Positions 971-29,119 of a stretch of DNA of 58,286 nt are shown here, one piece after another. The notes beneath the pieces are model-generated. The model made no database searches and was not told the DNA's origin. It was given only the letters and a program-made list of their open reading frames with translations. Within the stretch, counting starts at the first letter, position 1; each line of letters opens with the position of its first letter. The stretch is from positions 1 to 58,286 of the forward strand of contig CALUVS010000010.1 of NCBI GenBank assembly GCA_944324265.1. The letters are read 5' to 3'. The DNA is from an uncultured Traorella sp. Its GTDB lineage: Bacteria; Bacillota_I; Bacilli_A; Erysipelotrichales; Erysipelotrichaceae. The position numbers and the translations under genes are program-made.

Positions 971-1691
971 GTCGAGTAGACTATCTCGACCTTTCCCTCC
1001 TTTTCTACAATAGTCTAAATTACTCTTGCATGAGAGATTAGTCTTAATAACCCCTCACAGAACTGTACGTGCGGTTTTCCCGCATACAGCTCTTCAATAT
1101 CGCTTCGCTTAATACCATATATTTGATAGTTCACTTATGATCCTTGATTCATTTCTCACTTTTCATTACCTCTAGTGTAATTTACTGTTTATCATCTCGG
1201 ATAACGCGATATTGTCCACCCCTTCGCTCCCTATGTTTTGCATAGTTCCCTGCTACTATGGATGAATCCGACTTCTCATAGACCGTAAGGATTCCTTAGT
1301 TTACAAGACCTTGTGCCTCCCTTATCCGTTTACTCTAGGCTCACTGCCACTCGAGACTGGAAATCTATGAGACCTCCCAGGTATCCGCAATATACTTCGT
1401 TGGCTCGCCGCGCCCTTTGATTCCGGTGGAACTTCCTCATTCTTACCATATCGAATGATTTGTACTGTCTGCTTCAAAGAGGAATGAATCGATTTCCACT
1501 CTATATTACTAACGAAACTCAATAGCTTCACCCCAGTTGTTTTCAACTGACATTACGGCTCTCCAACTCTCCTGACTACGCTTAAACCTAACGTCACCGC
1601 TTCGGCTCCAAGTCTAGATACTAGCTGTTGGTTAGACTTTGCTAGATAGGGAATTTCACCCTACTATATATTACGCACCGAACTGGCGCAC
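971..1691 (-). mobile_element. ORF-less group II intron (about 721 nt)
   Basis: Read on the minus strand this starts with the group II 5' signature GTGCG (1691-1687) and ends with CTACTCGAC (979-971), which has the terminal AC and a candidate branch-point A seven bases from the end. Domain V is clear at about 1089-1057: it opens with GAGC, has a GAAA tetraloop in a GCGGGAAAACCGC hairpin and closes with GTTC. Candidate EBS1 CCTCTT (1482-1477) pairs perfectly with IBS1 AAGAGG at the end of the 5' exon (1697-1692). No reverse transcriptase/maturase ORF is present in the domain IV position; only ribozyme sequence is seen, so splicing or movement would need a maturase in trans, or self-splicing. 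The 3' boundary is less certain than the 5' one. Small ORFs inside it are not genes. Confidence 0.87.
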
Positions 1692-1792: not shown

Positions 1793-1877
1793 ATTTCGTA
1801 TATTTGAATAATCCTTTAATTATGGCAAATACCAGTATGAATGGCCAAGATACAAGACAAAACAGAAATTTTAACAT
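1791..1877 (-). CDS. 28-residue predicted small membrane peptide
   Basis: A short ORF starting MLKFLFCLVSWPF and ending in GLFKYTK. Residues 2-20 are almost all hydrophobic with Trp and Cys, followed by a basic tail, as expected for a single membrane helix. It is a self-contained transcription unit: a promoter (TTGAAT, 17 bp, CATAAT at 1938-1910), a Shine-Dalgarno AAGGGGATGA eight bases before ATG, and an immediate terminator. I do not recognise a family; small potassium-pump subunits or type I toxin-like peptides have this look, and the neighbouring gene block is a cation pump operon, but no function can be assigned. The evidence for expression is the signals around it, not homology. Confidence 0.55.
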   Translation of the reverse strand: MLKFLFCLVSWPFILVFAIIKGLFKYTK

Positions 1878-1958: not shown

Positions 1959-1991
1959 TAAAAAGCTCCGAAATCATATAATTTCAGAGCT
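1959..1991 (-). terminator. Terminator of the pump/RCK operon
   Basis: Minus strand AGCTCTGAAAT, short loop, ATTTCGGAGCT and a run of T. An 11-bp stem with one G-U pair, 13 bases beyond the end of the downstream RCK gene. Confidence 0.8.
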
Positions 1992-2003
1992 CACTGTTTT
2001 CTG

Positions 2004-2675
2004 TTATTCTTCCGCACCGAATATTCGGCTTAATTCTTCAATGGCTTCTTCATCGGCAAATGCCAAAATATACTGACCTGCACGAATTACTGTTTCACCA
2101 TGCGGGATCACCATTTCATCTTCTTCATATATCGCAATCAATAGTGCTCGGGAAGGCAGATTGATTTCCGCAATTGTTTTATTAATATTCGGAGAATGAT
2201 AATCCACATGGACACGAACAATTGAGTATTCTCCTTTGGATAAACGCATCAGTGTTATGATTGATTGATAATTCATTTCATCTGCCACCATATGACCGAT
2301 AATATCTGCCTGATTGATCTTAACATCGACTCCCATGCCTGAATTAAATAACCATGCATTTTTAGGATTGTTTACTCTGGCAATTACTTTCGGTACATCA
2401 TACTCAAATTTTGCCATCATGGCCGCTGCTAAATTGATTTCATCATTGCCGGTTGCACAGACAAAAGCATTGCATCTGCGAACACCTGCTTTTTCCAAAA
2501 GCAAAGCATCTGTTCCATCACCGACAATAATATTTTCTTGTTGGATTCCATTTCTTTTTAATGCTGAAAGAGCTTTTTCTTTATTTTCAATGACAACAAC
2601 ATCATGTCCTTTTTCAATGAGTAGATTAGCAATATATCTGCCGACCTGACCTCCGCCAATAATGATTACTTTCAT
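2004..2675 (-). CDS. TrkA/KtrA-family RCK protein (NAD-binding regulator of cation transport)
   Basis: 223-residue cytoplasmic RCK protein. Residues 1-130 are a Rossmann-type RCK_N domain with GGGQVGRYIANLL and an acidic residue ending strand 2 (VVVIENKEKA), the usual NAD(H) site; the remainder is an RCK_C domain (SIVRVHVDYHSPN...). Such proteins gate Trk/Ktr/Kef potassium transporters in response to NADH or cyclic dinucleotides. It is the last gene of a three-gene operon, 18 bp after the second RCK gene, with its own Shine-Dalgarno AAAGGAG. No TrkH/KtrB channel gene is present here; the only transporter is the P-type ATPase at the head of the operon, so that pump, or an unlinked channel, is its candidate partner. 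Confidence 0.9.
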   Translation of the reverse strand: MKVIIIGGGQVGRYIANLLIEKGHDVVVIENKEKALSALKRNGIQQENIIVGDGTDALLLEKAGVRRCNAFVCATGNDEINLAAAMMAKFEYDVPKVIARVNNPKNAWLFNSGMGVDVKINQADIIGHMVADEMNYQSIITLMRLSKGEYSIVRVHVDYHSPNINKTIAEINLPSRALLIAIYEEDEMVIPHGETVIRAGQYILAFADEEAIEELSRIFGAEE

Positions 2676-2693
2676 TGTAATTGCTCCTTTCTG

Positions 2694-3341
2694 CTACAGC
2701 TGCAGCAAATCTCTGGCTTGTTCTAAATAATCCGTGCTGACAGATAAATACACAATATCATTGTATTCACAGAATTTATCCATCATCGGTATAAAAGAAT
2801 GTCCTCGCCGTTCTGCTCCGATTACTTTGATCTTGCCTTCTGCTTCCAGATCAGAGTATTTTTTTCCTTCTAAACTTGCCGGTATGCGCACTCTTATAAG
2901 CTGAACATTGCTGCCAATTTTACGGATTACACGCCAGCTCTTGATGCCTTCCAAGTATTCCACTACGTTATCGACGCCCAAACGAGTAATGGATACTGTA
3001 TAAATTCCCATCGCTTCAAACATTCTTGCTCGGATCGGATCATACATCCGTGCAATGACCATCGGTACATGGAAAACGTTTTTGGCAATACTTGCCACAA
3101 CTGCATTCAATGAATCACTGCTCGTACAGCCTATGACGATATCTGCTGATGCAATTCCTGCTTGTTCCAATACTTCTTTGTCATAGCCGATGCCGCATAT
3201 CATACGGCCGGGAAAGTCTTTTCCTAATGCCAGAAAAGATTCTGAATTGCTGTCAACTACAGCTACTTCATAATTTCTCCAAACCAAATATTCCGATAAA
3301 CGAACACCGAATTTACCGCATCCTATAATTAATGCTTTCAT
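2694..3341 (-). CDS. Second TrkA/KtrA-family RCK protein
   Basis: 215-residue RCK protein built like its neighbour: N-terminal nucleotide-binding fold with GCGKFGVRLSEYL and VVDSNSES (Asp at the ribose position), then an RCK_C domain starting near IRVRIPASLEGK. It is clearly paralogous in design but divergent in sequence from the protein encoded at 2004-2675, suggesting a hetero-oligomeric ring. The ATG overlaps the stop codon of the ATPase gene (ATGA, 4 nt), so the two are translationally coupled. A good Shine-Dalgarno AAGGAGTTGATC sits inside the end of the ATPase gene. Confidence 0.9.
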   Translation of the reverse strand: MKALIIGCGKFGVRLSEYLVWRNYEVAVVDSNSESFLALGKDFPGRMICGIGYDKEVLEQAGIASADIVIGCTSSDSLNAVVASIAKNVFHVPMVIARMYDPIRARMFEAMGIYTVSITRLGVDNVVEYLEGIKSWRVIRKIGSNVQLIRVRIPASLEGKKYSDLEAEGKIKVIGAERRGHSFIPMMDKFCEYNDIVYLSVSTDYLEQARDLLQL

Positions 3342-6151
3342 TTCAGATCAACTCCTTTTCTTTTTGTATGCAAATATTTTTTTCTTAACTCTTCAATACC
3401 AAATACAATCAATGGAATACAAATCAGATAGAGCCATTCTATCCATGAGATAGGAGCCGTATTAAATATTCCATTTAAGAAAGGTATATACATAATTGCT
3501 AATAAAATCAGTATTTCAATAACTAAACCGGCATTGATATAAGGATTGCTGAAAAGACCTCGTTTGAACACTGATTCATGATCCGTACGATTATTCATAA
3601 CCATTCCCATTTGTGCAAAAATAATACCTGCCAGCATCATTGTTGTTGCTTCTGCGTAAGTACGTGTTCCTTCTGCAGCCAATGAAATCTGCGGCCATCC
3701 ATTCAAGAAATTCGCTATAAAATATCCGCCGACTGCAAATACAGTGGCTAAAAATCCATACCAAAGAAAACCCACCAAAATGACGTTGCGATTCAATAAA
3801 CGTTCATCGGCAGAACGCGGAGGCTTGTGCATCACACCTTCTTCTGCACTCTCTGCTCCCAATCCTAATGCCGGAACCATATCTGTTCCGATATCAATTG
3901 TCAATATCTGCAATACAGTCAGAGGTACAGGAATCAGACCGCCGGAAAGAAGGTATAGAGTAGGAGCGGCAGCTTCCGGTGTATTGCTGTCAAAAATATA
4001 ACGCAGGAATTTACGAATATTGTTGTATACGGTTCTTCCTTCTTCAATGGCTCGCACGATTGTTGCAAAATTATCATCACTTAAGATCATATCAGCCGCT
4101 TCTTTAGCCACATCTGTTCCTGTGATTCCCATTGCAATGCCTATATCGGCTTTTTTCAGTGCCGGCGAATCATTGACGCCATCTCCGGTCACTGCAACTA
4201 TATTGCCCATTTCCTGCAAAGCACAGACAATTCGATATTTTTGCTCAGGAGCCATGCGGGCAAAGACAACTTCTCCCTGCAATACCTGTTTCAATGCTTG
4301 ATCATCCATTTCAGACAATTCTGAACCGGAAATAACTTTCGCATCACTTGTCCTGATAATTCCAATTTTACGAGCAATACTTTCTGCCGTCAAGCCATAA
4401 TCTCCGGTAATCATGATGATCTTGATGCCGGCACTGTGACATAAACGCACAGCCTCTTTAACTTCACTGCGCGGAGGATCCTGCATTGCAATAAGTCCTA
4501 AAAAGGTTAAATCATTTTCAACATTTTCAGCAGTATATTCACGGATTGATTCCGGAAGTGATTCATCCTCTCTGCGTAGCGGACGATAAGCAACCGCCAA
4601 TACACGCAGACCTTCTTTTGCATAGGCATCATTTGCTTGCATGATGCGTTCTTGATCTTCTTTTGTTATCAAACGAGAAAAAGAACCATCAAAGCACCGG
4701 CTGCACAGTTCCATAACTTCTTTCGGTGCCCCTTTGACAAACGCAATACGATTGCTTCCTTCAAATGTTTCACTGAGCTGATGAATCGTCGTCATTCTCT
4801 TTCTGCGGGAATCAAAGGGAAGTTCCATAATACGCGGATATTTGTGATTTAATATCTTCATATCAATTCCACCCTTCCGAGCAGCAACTTCCAAACAAGC
4901 CTCTGTCGGATCTCCCAGCACTGTATAACGTTTTCCTTCTTCCTTAGGCTGAATCTTTGCATTTGAACATAGAGCAGCACCGCTTAACAATAAATTTAAT
5001 GCACGGCTGCTTCGTGCCGTAACGACAGTATCCCCATCTTTAATTTCACCCTGGGGGTCATAACCTTCACCGCTGACTGTCATTTCACTCCGCAGATTCC
5101 AAAGATAATTGACCGTCATTTCATTCTGTGTCAAAGTACCTGTCTTATCAGAACAAATCACATTTGTACAGCCCAATGTTTCTACCGCAGATAATTTTTT
5201 TACCAAAGCATTTTCCTTGGCCATTTTCTGCACTGCCAAAGCCAAAGATAAAGTAACAGCCGGCAATAATCCTTCCGGAATAAAGGCTACAACCATACCT
5301 AAAGCAAATAAGAATGATTCCATCCAAGGATCATTTACTAAAAATACAGCAATAAGAAAAAAGGCAAGACCTATTCCAAAGGCAATCAAAGCAATTTGTT
5401 TGGTTAATATATTCAATTCCTTCTGCAAAGGAGATAAAGTCTTTTCCGTATTCTGCGTTAAATTCGCAATCTTTCCGAATTCACTCTCCATTCCCGTTGA
5501 TACAGCCAAAGCCCGGCATGTACCGGCTGCCGCAGAAGTACCGGAAAAAACCATATTGTCTGCTTCCAAGTAACTGCATTCCTGCTGCAGTGCATCCCCG
5601 TTTTTTCGAATCGGATTGCTTTCTCCAGTCAATGTTGACTGATCCGCACTGAAATCATTGCTTTGAAGAATACGTGCATCTGCACTGATACGATCTCCTT
5701 CTTCCAAAATAAGTATATCCCCAGGAACTATTTCTGAAGCCAATATTTTTTTCTCTTCTTCATCTCGAATAACTCGTGCATAAGACGGCAGCATTTTCTG
5801 CAAAGCATTTGTTGCTTTTTCTGCCTTATACTCCTGAAAAAATGAAAACAATCCATTAATCAAATTAACACAGAAAATAGAAATACCTAATTCCAATGCC
5901 CCGGATAAAATCGCCATAAACCCTCCGGCCCATAATAAAAGAGCCATTAAACTGGTAAAATTAGCCAATAATTTCTTGAGAAGACTTGCCTGCTTTTTTT
6001 GAACCAATTCATTTTTGCCGAACTGCTCCAATCTCTCTTCTGCTTCTTTCTGGGAAAGACCTCGCATATTCGATTCCATCAAACGACAGGCTTCTGCAGG
6101 ACTTGAATAAAGTATTTTTTCTTTAATATCCGAAATTTTCTTATACATCAT
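3338..6151 (-). CDS. P-type cation ATPase, Na,K-ATPase-like (P2 class)
   Basis: About 937 residues. Hallmarks in order: LTGES actuator loop (about residue 173), PEGLLPAVT in M4 (about 290), phosphorylation motif DKTGTLT (about 334), GDGVNDSPALKKAD hinge (about 654), then six C-terminal helices. The ion-site segments resemble eukaryotic Na,K-ATPase more than Ca-ATPase: FDSNTPE in M5 keeps the Ser-Asn and Glu positions, and TIDIGTDMVPA in M6 matches the two-Asp motif. The substrate is thus likely K+ and/or Na+, not proven. The first in-frame codon is TTG at 6211 with no Shine-Dalgarno; ATG at 6151 follows GGTGA and is preferred (6148 also possible). It heads an operon with two RCK genes, the first overlapping its stop codon. 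Confidence 0.93.
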   Translation of the reverse strand: MMYKKISDIKEKILYSSPAEACRLMESNMRGLSQKEAEERLEQFGKNELVQKKQASLLKKLLANFTSLMALLLWAGGFMAILSGALELGISIFCVNLINGLFSFFQEYKAEKATNALQKMLPSYARVIRDEEEKKILASEIVPGDILILEEGDRISADARILQSNDFSADQSTLTGESNPIRKNGDALQQECSYLEADNMVFSGTSAAAGTCRALAVSTGMESEFGKIANLTQNTEKTLSPLQKELNILTKQIALIAFGIGLAFFLIAVFLVNDPWMESFLFALGMVVAFIPEGLLPAVTLSLALAVQKMAKENALVKKLSAVETLGCTNVICSDKTGTLTQNEMTVNYLWNLRSEMTVSGEGYDPQGEIKDGDTVVTARSSRALNLLLSGAALCSNAKIQPKEEGKRYTVLGDPTEACLEVAARKGGIDMKILNHKYPRIMELPFDSRRKRMTTIHQLSETFEGSNRIAFVKGAPKEVMELCSRCFDGSFSRLITKEDQERIMQANDAYAKEGLRVLAVAYRPLRREDESLPESIREYTAENVENDLTFLGLIAMQDPPRSEVKEAVRLCHSAGIKIIMITGDYGLTAESIARKIGIIRTSDAKVISGSELSEMDDQALKQVLQGEVVFARMAPEQKYRIVCALQEMGNIVAVTGDGVNDSPALKKADIGIAMGITGTDVAKEAADMILSDDNFATIVRAIEEGRTVYNNIRKFLRYIFDSNTPEAAAPTLYLLSGGLIPVPLTVLQILTIDIGTDMVPALGLGAESAEEGVMHKPPRSADERLLNRNVILVGFLWYGFLATVFAVGGYFIANFLNGWPQISLAAEGTRTYAEATTMMLAGIIFAQMGMVMNNRTDHESVFKRGLFSNPYINAGLVIEILILLAIMYIPFLNGIFNTAPISWIEWLYLICIPLIVFGIEELRKKYLHTKRKGVDLK

Positions 6152-6194: not shown

Positions 6195-6225
6195 AATGAT
6201 TCATCGTTCAACGAATCATTGATTC
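6195..6225. promoter_or_regulatory. Composite inverted repeat in pump leader (putative operator)
   Basis: AATGATTC (6195-6202) and GAATCATT (6213-6220) form a perfect 8-bp inverted repeat with a 10-bp gap, and GAATCATTGATTC (6213-6225) is itself nearly palindromic, giving three GATTC-type half-sites. It lies between the promoter and the preferred ATG, so it could be a repressor site or an mRNA hairpin. Confidence 0.45.
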
Positions 6226-6240
6226 AGTTAAACAGTGCAT

Positions 6241-6269
6241 AGTCTATATCTTTGAAATAAACAAGTCAA
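6241..6269 (-). promoter_or_regulatory. Probable promoter of the pump operon
   Basis: Minus strand TTGACT (6269-6264), 17 bp, TAGACT (6246-6241). The -35 is near consensus, the -10 weaker (4 of 6). Transcription would enter the inverted repeat immediately. Confidence 0.5.
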
Positions 6270-6508: not shown

Positions 6509-7196
6509 ATGGCGGAAACATTGAATGCCAAACTGATTGATATGTCTTTCATTACGACACGTATGAAAGGGTACCAAAGCTTATGTACTACTGATGAAGC
6601 CGATATTCCTTTTGCAGCTGCTCAATTAGCTGTAAATCAAGAAGCTATAAGATTTGTCGGTCGATGAAAGCAGTGAATTCAATATTCAGGATAAAGCTGG
6701 TGTCCAGCAGACAGATGGTATCTTATATATGATCGATGATTCTAAGATGATTGTGGCAATGGTTCAAGAATCTTTTGGCATGGTTGACGAATTAATTGAA
6801 AGAGGTATGGCTTATCAGACAGATTCTATTGAGGAATTGGCAGAAGTTGCAGAATTAGATGCTGAAACATTAGCTTCTACGATTGAAACATTCAATAGCT
6901 CTGTCCATACCGAAAATGATGCTGAATTCGGAAGAACTTCATTCAATGACAAAGTGGAAGAAGGGCCTTATTATGCTGTGAAATTACAGATGGCTTACCA
7001 TTTGACTTTCGGAGATTTAATTGTAGACGAATATATGCATGTCTTGGACAGCGACAACAATGTTATCAGCGGATTATATGCCGGAGGTGACATTTTAGGA
7101 GGATTCGAAGGAGATACTCACCAGAGCGGTCCATGTATGTCAATTGTCATTTATTCAGGCAGAGAAGCAGGAATTAATGCTGCTGCCGGCAATTAA
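6509..7196 (+). pseudogene. Truncated, frameshifted fumarate/urocanate-reductase-like flavoprotein
   Basis: Only the C-terminal part of an FAD_binding_2 flavoprotein remains (compare the gene at 47113). There is no FMN domain and no FAD Rossmann motif. The first segment (ATG 6509, MAETLNAKLIDMSF...) ends at TGA 6665; the second continues from about 6660 as VDESSEFNIQD... to 7196, with the family C-terminus ISGLYAGGDILGGFEGD and GREAGINAAAG. The break is a 4-bp tandem duplication, GTCGGTCG at 6656-6663; deleting one GTCG restores an uninterrupted reading through ...AIRFVDESSEF. The substrate and FAD sites are largely gone, so the product cannot be a working reductase. A second reading, that 6654-7196 is expressed from a TTG start as a short protein, is unlikely because it lacks a Shine-Dalgarno. 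Confidence 0.85.
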
Positions 7197-25951: not shown

Positions 25952-26178
25952 GTCGATTAAATCGTTGATAAGGATAAGTAAGCAATGGAATCTTATAGAG
26001 AGATGACAGCTGGTGGAAGTCATTATTGGAAATTGCTGAAATCAACCTTGGAGTGAACTGGTGAATCAAGTAGTCAGTTTCGGTGGTTCCGTTATAACTT
26101 TCAAGTGGATATGATTGATTTCATATCAAAAAGGGTGGCAACACGAGGTATCGTCCCTTATAACGATGCCTCTTTTTT
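25952..26178 (+). promoter_or_regulatory. T-box riboswitch, tRNA-Ser
   Basis: Leader of serS. The T-box AGGGTGGCAACACG is at 26132-26146; its bulge TGGC (26136-26139) can pair with the GCCA end of uncharged tRNA-Ser (discriminator G). A likely specifier codon, TCA (Ser), is at 26042-26044 in the stem I context GAAATCAACC. The terminator stem GAGGTATCGT/ACGATGCCTC followed by TTTTTT (about 26145-26177) competes with the antiterminator. Binding of uncharged tRNA-Ser would allow read-through into serS. The bulge reads CAAC where most T-boxes have ACC. Confidence 0.92.
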
Positions 26179-28981: not shown

Positions 28982-29010
28982 TTGCATTGAACAGAAAAGT
29001 AAGGTATAAT
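28982..29010 (+). promoter_or_regulatory. Promoter of SRP RNA
   Basis: TTGCAT (28982-28987), 17 bp, perfect TATAAT (29005-29010). Confidence 0.75.
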
Positions 29011-29014
29011 AAGA

Positions 29015-29098
29015 GGGCTATCACAATGGTATCTACTGAATCTGGTCAGGTCGGGAACGAAGCAGCCATAAGGGAGCTCTATCATGTGTGATAGTTTT
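29015..29098 (+). ncRNA. ffs: Signal recognition particle RNA, small bacterial type
   Basis: The conserved tip GGTCAGGTCGGGAACGAAGC (29044-29063) and the AGCAGCC loop partner are present; CTATCACA (29018-29025) pairs with TGTGATAG (29087-29094) to close the hairpin, followed by a T-run that ends transcription. About 80 nt, without an Alu domain, as in the short SRP RNAs. It scaffolds Ffh for cotranslational targeting. Located before tadA and dnaX as in Bacillus. Ends are estimated from promoter and stem. Confidence 0.92.
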
Positions 29099-29119
29099 TA
29101 TTTTATAGGCGGTGAGATT

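Follow-up and report, generated by a model that had tools for sequence, protein, structure and literature searches.

What do two RCK genes do directly behind the gene of an ATP-driven ion pump? This question is raised by a 58,286-nt stretch of DNA from an uncultured Traorella sp. (contig CALUVS010000010.1; the whole stretch is called the window in the following), in which a P2-type ATPase gene is joined by two genes of the RCK/TrkA type. Bacterial K+ channels, and some antiporters as well, are controlled in the cytosol chiefly by RCK rings, and P-type pumps are regulated by terminal domains, by small membrane subunits or, for Kdp, by KdpD. The analysis presented here points to an RCK assembly that descends from a split TrkA and quite probably regulates the P2 cation pump via nucleotide binding. 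We lean towards the more specific picture of a primary cation pump whose regulatory subunit is a gating ring taken from a K+ channel and whose turnover would be set by cytosolic ATP/ADP or NAD(H).

Gene order and conservation of the pump operon

The three genes lie on the minus strand and are transcribed in the order ATPase, RCK1 and RCK2. The ATPase (937 amino acids, 3338-6151), identified by its open reading frame and Pfam domains, is followed by RCK1 (215 amino acids, 2694-3341), which consists of a KtrA/TrkA-type N domain and a putative C domain, and by RCK2 (223 amino acids, 2004-2675) with a TrkA_N and a TrkA_C domain. The stop codon of the ATPase and the start codon of RCK1 overlap by 4 nt in the sequence ATGA (3338-3341, minus strand), which together with the open reading frames confirms the original prediction of a P2-ATPase gene directly followed by two RCK genes, the first of them overlapping it. 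The motif AGGAG within the end of the ATPase gene (3352-3356, minus strand) is the likely ribosome-binding site of RCK1, and the spacing between RCK1 and RCK2 amounts to 18 nt. For the ATPase, the ATG at 6151 was preferred as start over a possible alternative TTG upstream at 6211, because full-length homologues comprise about 928-968 amino acids.

Directly after RCK2 a strong hairpin is followed by a T run (1963-1992, minus strand; 13 pairs, -16.1 kcal/mol, z -4.5), and this terminator-like element would close the operon. Upstream of the ATPase a possible sigma-70-like promoter (TTGACT-17-TAGACT, 6241-6269, minus strand) is a weak match of the kind expected by chance. No Rfam match to an ion-sensing or c-di-AMP (cyclic di-AMP) riboswitch was found upstream of the pump in the window and 24 relatives. 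The possibility that the operon has a fourth conserved member, or a small subunit like KdpF, was considered and rejected, as the flanking open reading frames differ among the loci; in the flanks of the compared loci no other gene is conserved around the trio. Beyond the operon terminator a hydrophobic open reading frame of 28 amino acids (MLKFLFCLVSWPFILVFAIIKGLFKYTK; 1794-1877, minus strand) was noticed, which among the compared loci is present in the Traorella sp. genome only.

A scan of 84,980 species genomes with an RCK2 profile yielded 33 loci, by their record titles mostly from gut Bacillota; the hosts include Lachnospiraceae and other Clostridia metagenome-assembled genomes (MAGs), Traorella massiliensis and Thomasclavelia. 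The order ATPase-RCK1-RCK2 was present in 32/32 of these loci that have upstream DNA. In a second, older clade with the same gene order, the ATPase is 49-60%, RCK1 about 32-41% and RCK2 about 41-47% identical to the respective protein of the window. Altogether 59 loci from Bacilli and Clostridia, a few of them nearly identical, carry the three genes on one strand and in identical order, down to a pump identity of about 50%. The exact 4-nt overlap is kept in 29 of the 59, and with a single exception the gap lies in the range of -4 to +22 nt.

With respect to exclusiveness, the same 17 of 244 genomes of the order carry the pump clade and the RCK2 clade and the other 227 carry neither; the chance of such an agreement (~1e-26) assumes independent genomes and, the genomes being related, indicates a scale only. 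Among 391 Clostridia the seven best RCK1 matches (E at most 3e-63) all lie behind the pump, which exceeds a strict cut-off in six of them and is interrupted by a contig end in the seventh. The next group of RCK1 matches (E 1e-51 to 1e-38) consists of split-TrkA pairs, several of which adjoin TrkH and none of which, among those read, adjoins a pump. When the best two to three ATPase candidates in each of 295 genomes of the phylum were scored, both RCK genes accompanied every ATPase above 1100 bits; the next ATPases reached at most 772 bits (about 37% identity) and had no RCK gene within 1.5 kb. A conserved linkage of a P2-ATPase with two RCK genes, whose absence would have spoken against the original prediction, was found in the 59 loci and in the 17-to-17 agreement among the genomes of the order.

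Single loci deviate in detail. In L048 (4842-5213) and L051 (6891-8570) another P-type ATPase gene, distinct from that of the pump and about 32-38% identical, lies shortly downstream of RCK2, and in L101 (genome G037) an in-frame TAA divides the pump gene into open reading frames of 385 and 553 amino acids, with RCK1 and RCK2 intact.

The two RCK proteins and their origin

Both proteins exceed the Pfam cut-off for TrkA_N (23.8) with 78 bits (8e-22) for RCK1 and 105 bits (3.3e-30) for RCK2, and both combine this domain with the GxGxxG loop and the acidic residue of RCK proteins. In the window the nucleotide-binding loops read GCGKFG with D30 in RCK1 and GGGQVG with E30 in RCK2; among the relatives, GxGxxG is found in 59/59 sequences of either protein and the acidic residue at the end of strand 2 (D/E30) in all of them. 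The position of KtrA R16 is occupied by K or R in 58/59 RCK1 sequences and mostly by Q, as in TrkA, in RCK2. By analogy, ATP/ADP would fit as ligand of RCK1 and an NAD(H)-type ligand as that of RCK2.

NADH, ATP or c-di-AMP had been proposed as ligand. The c-di-AMP signature of RCK_C domains, (I/L)(I/L)X2DX1RX5N(I/L)(I/L) (PMC10117811), occurs in 0 of the 118 RCK1 and RCK2 proteins. Consequently, control by c-di-AMP through the canonical signature was rejected, and the nucleotides ATP/ADP and NAD(H) are the likelier ligands. The absence of the signature constitutes moderate evidence, because the KtrA-type RCKs of the same Traorella sp. genome also fit it only loosely.

TrkA_C was recognized by Pfam in RCK2 only (2.8e-13, 50 bits). 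The putative C domain of RCK1 has no Pfam match, yet the structural model is folded there, with a predicted local distance difference test score (pLDDT) mostly of 78-89 and an overall value of 86. The model aligns over its full length with two-domain RCKs at a modest TM-score; its top fold match is TM1088B in 3l4b, and TrkA of the TrkH-TrkA complex and the RCK of MthK are found as well. Since the root-mean-square deviation of the fold matches across the two domains is high, the domain arrangement of RCK1 is uncertain. By sequence, RCK1 resembles TM1088A (E 1e-19), and RCK2 matches TrkA, not MthK. Like the Thermotoga maritima pair TM1088A:TM1088B, which according to the title of entry 3l4b forms an octameric two-subunit ring, the window encodes two separate RCK proteins; however, TM1088A:TM1088B is given as an assembly that gates a K+ channel, whereas the pair of the window is linked to a P2-ATPase and not to TrkH. 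In ancestry and fold the pair agrees with a split TrkA hetero-ring, the ring itself being predicted.

In a quick tree of RCK proteins, in which the long TrkA/KtrA branches are uncertain, the pump-linked RCK1s form one clade (support 95 in the Shimodaira-Hasegawa-like approximate likelihood ratio test) and the pump-linked RCK2s another (96), and the RCK1 of the pump operons groups with Trk-linked RCK1 (99). The pumps likewise form one clade versus P2 ATPases without RCK (support 99). In the simplest reading, both members of a split-TrkA pair were transferred together, in a single event, from a Trk channel to a pump. The two RCK genes, initially regarded as divergent, are accordingly the two halves of such a pair, as indicated by tree and fold match. 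Furthermore, the pairwise distances of pump, RCK1 and RCK2 correlate with 0.93-0.97 in 48 operons and with 0.87-0.90 in the close clade.

The sequence comparison indicates that the operon also moves between lineages. The window's pump shares 86% identity with its counterpart in a Clostridia MAG (L046), against 78% with the one in Traorella massiliensis, a species of its own genus. A gyrA-like gene of the window, identified by its sequence, shows the normal vertical order, with up to 82% identity within the genus and 55% in the same Clostridia MAG. Contamination of the contig as the origin of the pump's closeness to Clostridia was rejected, as this gene on the same contig is nearest to its own genus and family.

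Ion-site residues of the pump

The ATPase contains a complete P2-ATPase domain set (E1-E2_ATPase 1.4e-53, Cation_ATPase_C 1.7e-47) and belongs to the P2-type superfamily by its DKTGT and TGES motifs and its E1-E2_ATPase, nucleotide-binding and Cation_ATPase_C domains; the catalytic residues D335 (DKTGT) and E177 (TGES) are present in every pump sequence covering them. The motifs PEGLL, DSNTPE and IDIGTDMVPA of the original prediction were all found. With the whole-protein models of NCBIfam, 660 bits were obtained for PMR1 (TIGR01522, cut-off 798), 615.5 bits for the Na,K/H,K alpha subunit (TIGR01106, cut-off 946.1) and 566 bits for SERCA (TIGR01116, cut-off 703), and by curated criteria the pump therefore falls outside all three subfamilies. 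Its best solved relative is SPCA1, and its C-terminal third matches Na,K-ATPase at about 220 bits.

The residues of the ion sites, with roles as assigned in Na,K-ATPase and SERCA, are highly conserved. E293, S722, N723, E726, D753, T756, D757 and Q847, corresponding to E327, S775, N776, E779, D804, T807, D808 and Q923 of Na,K-ATPase, are invariant in all covering sequences, and E879, the equivalent of E954, is kept in 58/59. Nine of the ten cation-site residues of Na,K-ATPase thus have their equivalents and the tenth, D926, fails, which leaves the set incomplete. The aligned relatives of the calcium type carry N at the D804 position (N-xx-TD), whereas D-xx-TD is found in 59/59 sequences of the pump clade; the M8 glutamine of the Q923 type is likewise present in 59/59. 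The lysine of the gastric H,K-pump at the S775 position is absent.

These residues suggest Na+ and K+ as the transported ions, and by their pattern the pump would carry monovalent cations at two sites, probably with counter-transport of K+. The proposed assignment to the Na,K-ATPase class consequently stands for nine ion-site equivalents and does not stand for D926 and the family cut-off. Compared with the Na,K-ATPase alpha subunit (P2C), the pump shares the ion residues of M4-M6 and the equivalents of Q923 in M8 and E954 in M9; it differs in the D926 position, in missing the P2C cut-off, in the RCK genes alongside and in the lack of any further conserved neighbour gene. In a 2023 review on P-type ATPases, P2C genes in methanogens are given as uncharacterised and RCK/TrkA is not mentioned (PMC10654040).

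Mechanism, rival explanations and meaning

We propose that the three genes form one unit, in which the P2-type ATPase would exchange monovalent cations, most likely Na+ out and K+ in, and in which the two RCK proteins would form an assembly descended from split TrkA and built like the TM1088A:TM1088B gating ring. This assembly would lie on the cytoplasmic side of the pump, bound to its cytoplasmic domains, and would bind nucleotides, namely ATP/ADP at the RCK1-type site and an NAD(H)-like ligand via RCK2. A ligand-driven change of shape would then raise or lower the pump activity with the energy or redox state of the cell, analogous to the action of TrkA/KtrA on TrkH/KtrB. At the level of genome comparison the pattern shows that the three proteins work together. 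Of the ligand-gated pump originally suggested, regulation by the RCK proteins stands as the best explanation, because the pairing is real, conserved and exclusive, while we infer the physical gating, as well as the contact of pump and RCK, the formation of a ring, the ligand, the direction of the regulation and the ion that is carried.

Several observations weigh against this proposal. Conservation of an operon is evidence of shared function and not necessarily of direct binding. With a mean divergence of 0.52 against 0.34, RCK1 evolves more rapidly than the pump, and in two separate lineages (L099, L100, L136, L138) RCK2 lacks the C domain and comprises 134-143 amino acids; TM1088A in 3l4b likewise has only 143. 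A single-chain read-through model of RCK1-RCK2, built as a modelling device, had low confidence where the two halves meet (mean pLDDT of 70.6, predicted TM-score of 0.49) and was left unused. As for the pump, the equivalent of D926 (site III of Na,K-ATPase) is replaced by M, A, I, V, N or Q, and the best single whole-protein model is that of PMR1-type Ca2+ pumps, though below its cut-off.

Another reading is a P2A-type pump for Ca2+ (or Mn2+) that has a Ca2+-sensing RCK, as in MthK; this reading is compatible with RCK control, and to it the PMR1 score, SPCA1 as best solved relative and the MthK RCK among the fold matches would lend support. We nevertheless regard it as doubtful: the 660 bits remain below the PMR1 cut-off of 798, D-xx-TD and the M8 glutamine are found throughout the clade where calcium-type relatives have N-xx-TD, the S/N/E of M5 is that of Na,K-ATPase, and RCK2 matches TrkA instead of MthK. 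It is also conceivable that the RCK proteins never touch the pump and act as stand-alone nucleotide or cation sensors of expression or of an unlinked protein, the operon being a regulon of convenience. Binding to the pump is indeed a prediction, and RCK folds do regulate non-channel proteins such as the KhtU antiporter by KhtT (PMC10117811). However, their one-to-one pairing with the pump in two classes, the tight overlap, the co-divergence, a neighbourhood without other conserved genes and Pfam matches of the trio proteins without any DNA-binding domain render this quite improbable.

Least credible is that the RCK pair still regulates a TrkH/KtrB elsewhere and that the operon merely co-expresses a K+ channel regulator with a membrane-energising pump, to which we give very little credence. 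Descent of RCK1 and RCK2 from Trk-linked split TrkA pairs speaks for it, as does TrkH/KtrB in most trio genomes. No TrkH/KtrB gene is present within the window, as originally stated, but the Traorella sp. genome has three on other contigs (C61, C32, C39). Each adjoins its own RCK (a 474-amino-acid double TrkA and two KtrA-type RCKs), therefore all channel genes of the genome are provided for, and a TrkH/KtrB without an RCK partner, which would have spoken against the original prediction, was not found there. RCK1 and RCK2 of the window are the only strong TrkA_N genes of the genome without a channel, and the trio, lacking the link of RCK to TrkH/KtrB, is no Trk/Ktr system. TrkH/KtrB is present in 23 of 26 trio genomes and absent from the other three, which are drafts; by comparison of gene coordinates, 34 of the 37 TrkH/KtrB genes in the 23 genomes are accompanied on their contig, at a distance of up to about 2.5 kb, by an RCK from outside the trio, and for the other 3 a further RCK gene lies on another contig of the same genome. 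In a second, partly overlapping set of 22 trio genomes seven are without TrkH/KtrB. Five trio genomes without it (G676, G753, G828, G829 and G832; 0.9-1.1 Mb) are 96-99% complete, and the RCK pair therefore cannot depend on TrkH/KtrB there; regulation of a channel in trans is largely refuted by the trio genomes without TrkH. The pair was moreover never found without the pump in the surveyed genomes, and regulation of the pump itself remains the preferred reading.

An RCK-regulated pump would share features with several known systems. With TrkH-TrkA and KtrB-KtrA/KtrC it has in common the RCK fold, the nucleotide-binding loops and a membrane transporter gene adjoining the RCK gene(s), but here a P-type pump driven by ATP takes the place of the TrkH/KtrB channel, and RCK1 and RCK2 lack the c-di-AMP signature of RCK_C. 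As in the P1 K+ pump KdpFABC, a P-type ATPase is paired with a component from the K+ channel/transporter superfamily; whereas KdpFABC borrows the channel-like subunit KdpA, the borrowed part here is the cytosolic regulator of the channel and the ATPase is of the P2 type. In KhtT/KhtU and CpeA/CpeB, RCK proteins likewise control a non-channel transporter (PMC10117811); those are secondary transporters under c-di-AMP control via RCK_C, in contrast to the primary pump without c-di-AMP signature considered here.

Further features of the window were recorded. Just downstream of the operon lie pieces of a group II intron RNA (971-1656, minus strand; RF02005 at 1411-1656, RF00029 at 971-1094) with no long open reading frame between them, i.e. 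an intron without reverse transcriptase, and a LysR-type gene (97-963) adjoins these pieces. Upstream of the pump a fragment of a flavin-dependent reductase-like gene (6654-7196, plus strand) is apparently a pseudogene remnant. A T-box leader (25956-26161) and a bacterial small signal recognition particle RNA (29010-29107) are also present.

In the portion of the open-access literature that was accessible, no description of RCK/TrkA paired with a P-type ATPase was found, besides Kdp-related and incidental co-mentions. The parts are known and their combination appears to be new; if true, this would be, to our knowledge, the first RCK-controlled P-type ATPase. The RCK sensor module would then also control primary pumps, and the operon would allow a Na,K-ATPase-like enzyme with soluble regulators to be studied in a convenient bacterial system. 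Cation handling in some small-genome bacteria without any TrkH/KtrB would also become easier to explain.

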